A stretch of 58,246 bases of DNA from contig JAHEBH010000011.1 of the NCBI GenBank assembly GCA_024642335.1, positions 1-58,246 on the forward strand. The letters run 5' to 3'. The translations under genes were made by a program, and so were the position numbers. The notes beneath the pieces were generated by a model, which was given only the letters and a program-made list of their open reading frames with translations, was not told the origin of the DNA and did not search any database. This DNA is from Erythrobacter sp. GTDB taxonomy: Bacteria > Pseudomonadota > Alphaproteobacteria > Sphingomonadales > Sphingomonadaceae. Shown piece by piece: positions 47,813-50,417 of the stretch; position 1 is the first letter of the stretch, and each line of letters opens with the position of its first letter.

Positions 47813-47925
47813 GCGAACCCCTTTGAAGTCGCCATTGCCATGCTGCTATCTAGGGTCTTGAGCGGATCAGCGCCAGACATATGCCATCAGCTGTCAACGC
47901 ACTTCTATCAACGCCGTGCCCATTT

Positions 47926-47953
47926 CCAACTTGACAAGTTGGTTTTATCCAAC
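47926..47953. promoter_or_regulatory. Palindrome and repeat before the HTH-pyrB fusion
   Basis: CCAACTTGACAAGTTGG (47926-47942) is a perfect 7-base inverted repeat with a 3-base centre; a third CCAAC follows at 47949-47953, giving a second TTGG/CCAA pair. It lies 25 bases before the ATG at 47968 and contains TTGACA, which could also be a -35 element. It is a candidate operator for the helix-turn-helix carried by the downstream protein, or for another regulator, or for a leader RNA hairpin. Confidence 0.45.
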
Positions 47954-47967
47954 AAAAGCGATTGCCG

Positions 47968-49191
47968 ATGACAGACCTGCTCGAAGAAATTGCCCGGTTT
48001 TGCGCGCATCACGACATGTCGGAGACGCGTTTTGGCGAACTGGTGCTTAACGACAAGCCATTCGTGTCCCAGCTTCGTGCGGGACGCGATATTCGTGCCA
48101 GCACAGTCGAGAAGATCCGCGCCTTCATGCAGGATTTCGAAAGTCCTGAAGTCTCGGTGTCCCAGGCCCGGGCCCCCGCAAGTGGCCGGTATCCGGCAGG
48201 CGGGCGGGCCTTCCCGCATCGCGACCTTATTTCCATCGGAGCGCTGCAAACGCACGAGATACTGTTCCTGCTGGATGAGGCAGAGCAATGGGTTCAGCTG
48301 AACCGCCGGTCAAGCAAGCATCACGATGCGCTGGCTGGCCTCACCATCATCAATGCCTTCTTCGAGAACAGTACGCGTACGCTGCTGAGTTTCGAGATTG
48401 CCGGCAAGCGGCTGGGTGCCGACGTGGTGAACATGCATGCCGCACAGTCGAGCGTGAAGAAGGGCGAAACGCTGATCGATACTGCGGTCACGCTCAATGC
48501 CATGCGCCCAAATGCCATCGTTATCCGCCACGGTTCATCCGGTGCGGTGGGGCTGATCGCCGACAAGGTGGATTGCCCCGTGCTCAATGCGGGTGACGGC
48601 CAGCACGAACATCCCACCCAGGCGCTGCTCGATGCGCTGGCGCTGCGCCACAAGCTGCGCGAACGGGGTGAGATGAGCGCGGACGGCATGTTCAACGGAC
48701 TGGCGGTGACGATCTGCGGCGACATCCTGCACAGCCGCGTCGCGCGCTCCAACATCCTGTGCCTGCAGGCGCTGGGGGCCAAGGTGCGCCTCTGTGCGCC
48801 GCCTGCACTGATGCCGACCGGAGTCGAGGCGACGGGTGTGGAGGTTTTCCACCACTTCGATCAGGCACTGGCAGGGGCCGATGTGGTGATGATGCTGCGC
48901 CTGCAGAACGAGCGGATGGATGGTCAATTCATTCCTTCGCCCCGCGAATATCACCACCTCTACGGATTGACGCAGGAGAGGCTGGCACTAGCGGGGCCCG
49001 ATGCCATCGTCATGCATCCCGGCCCGATGAATCGCGGGGTGGAGATCGACAGCGACGTGGCCGACATGCCGGGGCGCTCGATCATCACCGCGCAGGTAGA
49101 GATGGGTGTTGCGATCCGCATGGCCTGCCTCGACGTGCTGACCCGCAAGGAACGCAAGGTGCCCGGCTGGGGTGAGGGAGAATGGGTATGA
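47968..49191 (+). CDS. pyrB: Aspartate carbamoyltransferase catalytic chain with N-terminal helix-turn-helix extension
   Basis: 407 residues. About residues 76-400 are aspartate carbamoyltransferase, the first committed pyrimidine step: [18 protein letters not shown] (carbamoyl-phosphate loop), [34 protein letters not shown] and [11 protein letters not shown]. Residues 1-58 are extra and look like a small helix-turn-helix domain ([13 protein letters not shown], then [13 protein letters not shown] as the putative recognition region), resembling stand-alone proteins common in sphingomonads. No stop or strong internal start separates the parts, so a true fusion is likely. The start is the ATG at 47968; a TTG at 47962 would add two residues. 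It overlaps the next gene, and no pyrI is present. Confidence 0.88.
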
Positions 49192-50417
49192 GGCAGTTGA
49201 CCCCCATCTCGATCACCGGCGGAAGGATCGTGACCAGCGACGGGATCGTCGAAGGCAATCTGCGACTGGTCGATGGGCTTATCGTCTCGGTAGGTGACGG
49301 AGTGCATGAAGGCGACTTTCTGGTCGATGCCGCCGGACGGCTGGTCACGCCCGGCATGGTGGACCTTGGTGTCTTCGCCATCGACAAGCCGGCTTTCCAT
49401 TTTGGCGGGATTACGCGTGCGGCGCTGATGCCAGACCAGTCCCCGCCGCTCGACCATCCGGCGCGTGTGCGCTTCGCGGCGCAGAGTGGAAAGCCCGATT
49501 TCTGGGTGCATCCAATCGCCGCCGCGACTACCGCTCTCGAAGGCAAGAGCCTCGCCGAAATAGCATTGATGCGAGATGCTGGTGCGCGTGCAATAGCCAC
49601 AGGGCGCAGCTGGATTGCCGATAGCGGCGTCATGCTGCGCCTGCTGCAATATGCCGCCATGCTCGACATGGTGGTGATCAGCCATGCCGAAGATGGCGGA
49701 ATGGCCGGCAAGGCTTCCGCTACTGCGGGCGAGATCGCAACACGCCTTGGCCTGCCGAGCGCCCCTGCCGTGGCAGAGGCACTGGCGGTGGCGCGCGATA
49801 TCGCGCTGGCGGAACTGGCCGGAGCGCGCTTGCATTTGCGGCAGGTAACCACCCGCGCAGCGCTCGATCTTGTACGTGCGGCCAAGGCGCGCGGTGTGGC
49901 GGTGACTGCCGGTGTCACGCCGGCCCATTTCATGCTTTCGGACCTGGCGCTCGCCGGATTCCGGACTTTTGCCCGCCTGTCTCCCCCGCTGCGATCGGAG
50001 GAAGACCGCCAGGCTGTGATCGAGGCGATTGGCGACGGGACAATCGATGTCATCGCGAGCGGTCACGATCCGCGCGGGCCGGAGGACAAGCGCCTGCCCT
50101 TTGCCGATGCCGAACCGGGCATGGCGGGTGCGGAGACCTTGCTGCCCATGACGCTCACCCTCGTGCGTGACGGCGTGATCTCCATCGAACGCGCCTTTGA
50201 CCTGATCGCCCGCAACCCGGCCCGCCTGCTGGGCGTGGAGGCCGGTGCACTGATGGTCGGTTGCGAGGCCGATGTGGCCATCGTCGATGCACAGCGGCCC
50301 TGGGTCGTGGATTCGCGCAAGATGGCCGCACAAGCAGGCAACACACCCTTCGACGGCCAGCCCGTGCAAGGACGCGTCACCGCCCTGTGGAAGGGCGGCA
50401 TGGGAATCGCGCTCTGA
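49188..50417 (+). CDS. Dihydroorotase-like protein, probably non-catalytic (PyrC'/PyrX type)
   Basis: 409 residues of the dihydroorotase/amidohydrolase family that lack key metal ligands. Where active enzymes have the HxH motif after PGxVD, this protein reads [19 protein letters not shown]. The late DHAPH-type motif, with its catalytic aspartate, reads [15 protein letters not shown]. One histidine remains in VISHAEDGG. Such degenerate dihydroorotases are known to bind and support aspartate carbamoyltransferase in Pseudomonas. It begins by an ATGA overlap with the pyrB fusion (an ATG six bases earlier is an alternative), with GGGAG upstream. An active pyrC must lie elsewhere. Confidence 0.85.

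Follow-up and report, generated by a model that had tools for sequence, protein, structure and literature searches.

Aspartate carbamoyltransferase (ATCase, PyrB) is a textbook enzyme for allosteric control. In the stretch of Erythrobacter sp. DNA analysed here (58,246 nucleotides; hereafter, the window), the pyrB reading frame begins with a helix-turn-helix (HTH)-like domain, which raises the question of whether an enzyme of pyrimidine synthesis also regulates the gene that encodes it. Based on comparisons between genomes and on structure prediction, we suggest that the gene encodes a self-regulating ATCase, HTH-PyrB, that would repress its own pyrBC promoter, and we assign this reading a probability of about 0.8. 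The enzyme probably controls its own gene because a likely binding site is present in its own promoter.

Architecture and occurrence of the HTH-PyrB fusion

The coding part of the locus comprises the following features.

47968-49191, forward strand: HTH-PyrB ORF, 407 aa, a stop-free reading frame
47968..48141, forward strand: likely lambda-repressor-like HTH domain, residues 1-58 (fold predicted from AF2 and Foldseek/VIA lists; purifying selection)
48061..48078, forward strand: helix 3, the predicted recognition helix, residues 32-37 (DSSP of the AF2 model)
48142..48219, forward strand: linker, residues 59-84, with low pLDDT over 60-88
48220..49191, forward strand: PyrB, aspartate carbamoyltransferase catalytic chain, residues 85-407 plus stop (NF002032, PF02729, PF00185)
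49182..50417, forward strand: pyrC-like dihydroorotase gene, overlapping the end of pyrB (ORF and amidohydrolase matches)

The original prediction held that a single frame runs from an HTH-like domain into a full-length PyrB. This is confirmed: the frame is open with no frameshift in the window; the four-helix model of the N-terminal domain resembles an HTH at medium confidence (pLDDT 78); and the fusion recurs in other species, with 16 genomes, including that of the window, falling into three lineages of 3, 12 and 1 members. This recurrence makes an assembly artefact very unlikely.

The match to aspartate carbamoyltransferase covers residues 85-391 (NF002032, E 2e-116). The fused protein scores 388 bits against a cut-off of 263 for NF002032 and 297 bits against 237 for TIGR00670, and both carbamoyltransferase domains, PF02729 and PF00185, are matched. 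The STRT and HPTQ motifs, which we take to be conserved substrate-binding motifs of PyrB, and other PyrB motifs do not vary among the 11 of 16 fused proteins that were aligned. Because HTH-PyrB is the single PyrB match at E<=1e-60 in the window's genome, its PyrB part is presumably functional. A PyrI domain is absent from the Pfam matches of the fused protein, and the PyrBI model NF009916 gives a score of 61.7 over residues 81-356 only, far below its cut-off of 800. The linker is mostly unconserved up to about residue 77, differs in length by 4 residues between lineages and, in a codon comparison, shows relaxed selection in residues 57-77. In the downstream pyrC-like ORF, the amidohydrolase matches reach cut-off and the DHOase match is below cut-off; we infer that pyrB and this overlapping gene lie in the same operon.

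The PyrB search at E<=1e-60 covered 99 genomes, the window's own plus relatives, and gave a match in 95. Matches extend over residues 1-407 in three of the 99 (G000, which is the window's own genome, G032 and G028), while most other same-genus PyrB matches begin near residue 62-70 of the fusion. Lineage A, that of the window, consists of three species. A profile search of genome contigs with the HTH, using the closer alignment set A2, gave 10 loci, all of them in-frame HTH-PyrB fusions (10/10); two correspond to G032 and G028, and eight belong to a second lineage, lineage B. In the genus of one second-lineage member, 106 of 114 genomes have a PyrB match, 11 of them starting from residue 1 or 2. 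A twelfth member of this lineage, G280, has the HTH and the operator with a frameshifted pyrB part (L214, G280:C1:2444100-2445800); the frameshift could be a sequencing error or reflect a decaying gene. The third lineage is represented by a fusion in another genus of the window's family (G363). By name, ten records comprise eight Erythrobacter/Altererythrobacter, one Erythrobacteraceae bacterium and one Alphaproteobacteria MAG.

For residues 1-65, AlphaFold2 predicts four helices (2-14, 19-27, 32-37 and 44-58), with a mean pLDDT of 77.8. In Foldseek, the best 50 matches listed are largely lambda-repressor-type HTH regulators plus some CUT domains; none of the matches listed reaches E 0.001, the best having E 0.7. 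In sequence searches with residues 1-68, no Pfam or NCBIfam family, and thus no curated HTH family, is matched, only PHROG family 7669 (function not annotated) appears at a notable level (E 1e-5), and the PDB yields three weak matches only, the best with E 0.72. For four stand-alone relatives of the domain, Pfam gave no HTH match, and one plasmid homologue is annotated as “helix-turn-helix domain-containing protein”. Residues 1-58 are likely a lambda-repressor-like HTH, and by comparison with lambda-type HTHs helix 3 would be the recognition helix.

Thirty HTH positions are invariant in the 11 aligned fused proteins. Within the predicted recognition helix these are F32, V33, Q35 and L36, and around it they include N28-V33, Q35, L36 and G39-D41; the G363 protein, which was found later and lies outside this alignment, departs at position 28. 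In codon comparisons that cover 8 of 55 possible pairs, dN/dS in three lineage-A pairs is 0.04-0.10 for the HTH, 0.07-0.12 for PyrB and 0.24-0.37 for the linker. In lineage B, where synonymous sites are often near saturation and pN/pS is therefore given, the values for three pairs are 0.04-0.18, 0.10-0.12 and 0.50-0.57, respectively. Between lineages, the HTH is less constrained, with pN/pS of 0.33 and 0.44 in two pairs compared to 0.20 and 0.21 for PyrB. These ratios indicate that the HTH is maintained by purifying selection and that, within lineages, its constraint is about that of PyrB.

A predicted operator and the proposed mechanism

Upstream of the start codon, three further features are relevant.

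47938..47953, no strand assigned: predicted operator GTTGG-TTTTAT-CCAAC (GTTGG-N6-CCAAC at 16/16 fused loci)
47926..47942, no strand assigned: perfect 8+1+8 inverted repeat CCAACTTG-A-CAAGTTGG (sequence; identical in three lineage-A species)
47931..47936, forward strand: candidate -35 element TTGACA (sequence)

A palindrome at 47926-47953 had been proposed as a binding site. The palindrome is real, and it is likely an operator: every one of the 16 fused loci has GTTGG-N6-CCAAC directly upstream of the start codon, and the 47 unfused pyrB loci examined all lack it within 400 bp of the PyrB core. The inverted repeat at 47926-47942 overlaps this element, its left half provides a third half-site in the window's lineage, and the next best site for the 8+1+8 repeat in the same genome carries 2 mismatches. 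In lineage A, the operator lies within the block TTTCCAACTTGACAAGTTGGTTTTATCCAACAAAAGCG, which is identical in the three species while much other intergenic DNA differs. In lineage B and G363, the operator reads GTTGG-(TTAAAT, TTTAAT, ATAAAT or CCAAAT)-CCAAC. Overall, much of the other intergenic sequence has diverged, but the operator has kept its position near the start codon. A -35-like TTGACA or, for instance, TGGACG is followed by the operator, which takes up the spacer, and the TTGACA-plus-operator arrangement is also present at the stand-alone locus L074. In lineage B, a -10-like element follows the operator; in the window, TTGACA is followed by a weak -10 region only, and the exact promoter is therefore uncertain in the window's lineage.

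A search with GTTGGWTWWATCCAAC allowing up to 2 mismatches identified the pyrB operator as the sole site in the window's genome and in G226. The window's genome has four exact GTTGG-N6-CCAAC sites, of which only that at 47938-47953 has an A/T-only spacer. With one mismatch allowed, it has 96 sites compared to 58 for a control pattern, so that the GTTGG/CCAAC arms alone are not specific. Ten fused genomes together have 15 exact sites besides those of pyrB, compared to 19 for the control pattern, and an A/T-only spacer is absent from all 18 non-pyrB exact sites (three in the window's genome and these 15). With an AT-rich spacer and 2 mismatches, six other genomes show few extra sites, at or somewhat above control; in G231, there are 3 and 2 extra sites compared to 0 and 0 for the control. 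We also considered an HTH-controlled pyr regulon; judged by close matches to the operator, of which the window's genome has only the pyrB site, it is rejected for this genome.

We suggest the following model. The protein would consist of a small Cro-like HTH, inherited along with its promoter and operator, a flexible linker and an intact PyrB. HTH-PyrB molecules would bind GTTGG-N6-CCAAC through the HTH, probably as a pair; in the pyrB promoter, this inverted repeat would lie downstream of the -35 and upstream of the -10 region, and HTH-PyrB bound there would block RNA polymerase. As the enzyme accumulates, expression of pyrB and the overlapping pyrC would be held down. DNA binding by HTH-PyrB, its action in repression rather than activation, and dimeric binding to the 16-bp repeat are predictions. 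PyrB is a trimer in known structures, so that the three HTHs of a trimer would face two half-sites, or three in the window's lineage.

The original prediction had gone further and suggested that an enzyme with its own DNA-binding domain could sense nucleotide or carbamoyl-phosphate levels and control its operon directly. Self-regulation is well supported by the conserved fusion and by the occurrence of the operator at all fused and none of the unfused pyrB loci examined, while the metabolite-sensing trigger enzyme is a hypothesis. Given autoregulation, it is tentatively conceivable, at somewhat less than even odds, that a ligand or the assembly state of PyrB (substrates, nucleotides) tunes DNA binding. 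In a narrower form of the self-regulation model, which overlaps with it in probability and comes close to an even chance, HTH-PyrB would be a plain homeostatic autorepressor in which the HTH gauges the amount of enzyme in the absence of metabolite input and PyrB is cargo. Consistent with this, stand-alone members of the HTH family appear to autoregulate without a sensor domain, and the linker, variable in sequence and length and modelled at low confidence, does not suggest tight coupling; however, a plain autorepressor leaves unexplained why the cassette was kept on this one enzyme. A more elaborate version of self-regulation is, in our opinion, possible and rather unlikely: a captured phage Cro-like cassette would have spread between Erythrobacter-type pyrB loci, the trimeric enzyme would be a single-target repressor switched by occupancy, and pyrBC expression would read pyrimidine flux.

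Origin of the fusion and relatives of the HTH

One further feature bears on how the fusion arose.

47874..47918, forward strand: possible decayed copy of the pyrB promoter of unfused relatives (local alignment to 40 native promoters)

The promoter of unfused pyrB is recognisable, for example as GGTTGAGC-N12-CTCGACTAA before TTTAATG, and 40 such promoters were found. Aligned to these, 47874-47918 gives a score of 30, and 1 of 100 shuffles does as well. On visual inspection, a damaged native promoter persists upstream of the operator in many fused loci. In 15 fused loci (G280 left out) compared to 100 simple block shuffles each, the trace exceeds all shuffles in 6/15; in the others, it is reached by 1-3 shuffles in five (by 1 in the window), by 10-14 in three and by 99 in L180. 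The trace is weak in L111, L115 and L153 and absent in L180 among these 15, and in L118 and L149 the aligned spot differs from that picked by eye. Such native promoter traces upstream of the operator would be consistent with a promoter-operator-HTH cassette having been placed between pyrB and its old promoter.

In a PyrB-core tree with 11 fused of 38 rows, at least 3 changes between fused and unfused labels are needed, and at least 4 in a tree with 15 fused of 61 rows, in which L180 is a long branch. Fused L114 and unfused L171 are well-supported sisters in the PyrB-core tree. By contrast, in an HTH tree of only 59 columns and 36 rows, from which L002 (no match) was left out, the fused proteins form one group with the stand-alone L074 and L182 (86/88). 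A single vertical origin of the fusion was considered and is not favoured: the PyrB-core trees scatter the fused rows while the HTHs group together, and the scatter may reflect cassette transfer, repeated gain or loss.

The native promoter traces in part of the fused loci are also what would be expected if the main gain had been a new pyrB promoter, with DNA binding by the in-frame HTH now of little importance. We consider such promoter capture improbable, since the HTH is under purifying selection within lineages and the operator arms are identical at 16/16 fused loci.

As the original prediction anticipated, HTH modules of this kind occur as separate small proteins: homologues are present in 125 of 149 family genomes (E<=0.01), mostly as short stand-alone frames, and the window's own genome has one stand-alone homologue, C53:32904, with 36% identity. 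Symmetric GTNGG-N6-CCNAC-type repeats are present upstream of 12 of 20 stand-alone cluster representatives compared to 0.21 expected from shuffles, with the qualification that part of these data had already served to recognise the motif and that several clusters share near-identical upstream blocks and are not fully independent. The same repeat design is found upstream of 37 of 75 stand-alone loci. The motif was then fixed and applied to a separate set of 16 loci from other families, of which 4 have the repeat compared to 0.18 expected (simulated P 2e-5); among these four, L218 encodes an HTH joined to a longer protein. This set derives from 25 loci (L217-L241), from which nine were removed: four belonged to the window's family, three gave no local tblastn match and two were repeats. 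The repeat is absent in 8 of the 20 cluster representatives and in 12 of the 16 loci of the separate set.

Two other kinds of upstream elements were observed. In several genera, a conserved block similar to TAGGATTTTTCCTAGACAAGTAGGATTT, with three half-sites, recurs upstream of genes of the main stand-alone subfamily (for example L038, L040 and L062), and a variant of it precedes the own-genome copy C53 (L002). In addition, GAAC-N7-GAAC direct repeats lie beside HTH-type repeats upstream of L052, L058, L075, L077, L080 and similar loci; they resemble what we take to be the alphaproteobacterial LexA box, and these small HTH genes may therefore be SOS-linked.

The nearest stand-alone relative is in G035 (52%; locus L146). 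Its gene is divergent to a gene for a protein with a Cro/C1-type HTH and an S24 peptidase (CI-like), the start of which was placed inside the listed ORF, and Rad52-like and PolB-type exonuclease genes are in the neighbourhood. Its upstream region contains weaker sites and GTTGGTTTTATCCAAC, which matches the window's operator at all 16 bp. Thus, at this one locus, the nearest stand-alone homologue occupies a Cro-like position opposite a CI-like gene with a shared operator. More distant homologues are present in four phage and four plasmid records. Given the identical 16-mer and the Cro-like position, we suggest that a phage Cro-like repressor would be the ancestor of the fused HTH and would have brought its operator along.

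In some other ATCases, an N-terminal extension has a role in enzyme assembly, and curated HTH families do not match the domain, as would suit a non-DNA-binding assembly or stability module; its homology to stand-alone proteins with operator-like repeats and its co-occurrence with GTTGG-N6-CCAAC render this very improbable. We regard it as equally improbable that a host enzyme confers immunity here, with the fused HTH acting mainly to silence prophages, invading or resident, that share the operator: the prophage-like G035 locus and the window do have the same 16-bp operator, but the 16 fused pyrB genes all carry the operator themselves and a second such site was not found in the window's genome. 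Scarcely credible is an annotation or assembly artefact, with the true start after the HTH or the fusion a sequencing error, as by eye no strong ribosome-binding site precedes 47968 and residue 54 is Met in the window, but in 16 genomes the frame continues, conserved and uninterrupted, through HTH and linker, the HTH is under codon-level selection, and Met54 is Ile in L111 and L118, which therefore have no conserved internal ATG there. An internal ATG start yielding PyrB alone was likewise rejected, Met54 not being conserved.

HTHs of this kind are also joined to other proteins. In G748, from another family of the class, the HTH is at the N-terminus of an AMP nucleosidase (L227:1299-2972, forward strand; NF006142, E 3e-183, residues 64-549 of the stretch scanned), with the 14-bp palindrome ATAATTGCAATTAT at the start codon; 18 of 58 genomes searched have a match, and only that in G748 begins at residue 1. 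In L218:274-1656 and L228:316-1659 (both reverse strand), L223 and L142, it is fused to a longer protein named by eye as methyltransferase-like; L218 has no Pfam or NCBIfam match, L228 has no NCBIfam match, and the L218 upstream region carries GTGGGAAATATCCCAC. Of ten stretches checked for long frames and upstream regions, L142 is a real fusion, L138, L139 and L140 are apparent chance extensions of short genes, L143 is an ambiguous case, L144 is a chance match only, L146 is the G035 locus, and L141, L145 and L147 have no row. L225, L232, L234 and L237 appear to have two tandem HTH copies, some followed by a further DNA-binding-like segment. On the more elaborate and rather unlikely version of self-regulation given above, these fusions to AMP nucleosidase and methyltransferase-like proteins mean that HTHs of this kind may be a general add-on control for enzymes.

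Relation to known systems

The DNA-binding domains of PutA and BirA are of the ribbon-helix-helix or winged-helix type. PutA is a proline dehydrogenase and the repressor of its own operon, and BirA is a biotin ligase and the repressor of the bio operon; these “trigger enzymes” combine, as HTH-PyrB would, a metabolic enzyme and a DNA-binding regulator in one chain that acts at the promoter of its own pathway (PMC6978683). HTH-PyrB is one conserved enzyme/HTH chain in 16 genomes, with predicted DNA binding and a predicted operator at a gene of its own pathway. It differs from PutA and BirA in its enzyme, its phage-type HTH and its one predicted target. PyrB-PyrI and the fused PyrBI ATCases (Thermotoga) likewise have an added regulatory part (PMC4581275); in HTH-PyrB, however, the added part is an N-terminal HTH-like domain and not a PyrI regulatory chain. 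That review covers fused catalytic and regulatory chains as well as CAD-type fusions, and its available part does not contain “helix-turn-helix” or “DNA-binding” (PMC4581275). Enzymes also regulate pyrimidine genes at E. coli carAB, where PepA binds the control region by surface patches and wrapping and direct binding of PyrH was not seen; these enzymes act on carAB, whereas HTH-PyrB is predicted to act on its own pyrB (PMC6245113).

Closer relatives differ in other respects. The small Cro-like HTH proteins of Sphingomonadaceae-type genomes and prophages (relatives of PHROG 7669) have a homologous domain, and many have the same kind of inverted repeat upstream; in the window, by contrast, the domain is fused to an enzyme encoded in a chromosomal operon. 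Within the genus, ordinary unfused PyrB, presumably of the catalytic trimer type, is 78-90% identical in the catalytic chain among the same-genus matches listed and mostly starts near residue 62-72 of the fusion, and its gene also adjoins sppA in the loci inspected, but it has a different native promoter and lacks the HTH and the operator. No paper on an HTH-PyrB fusion is among the matches listed in full-text literature searches, which covered subscription journals to a small extent. Thus, enzymes that repress their own pathway are known, while a PyrB that carries an HTH was not found in the literature searched and seems new.

If the model is correct, an ATCase with a phage-type repressor domain and operator would represent a new form of control of pyrimidine synthesis. 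With fused and unfused species side by side, the system would show a phage control element becoming the regulator of a core metabolic operon.
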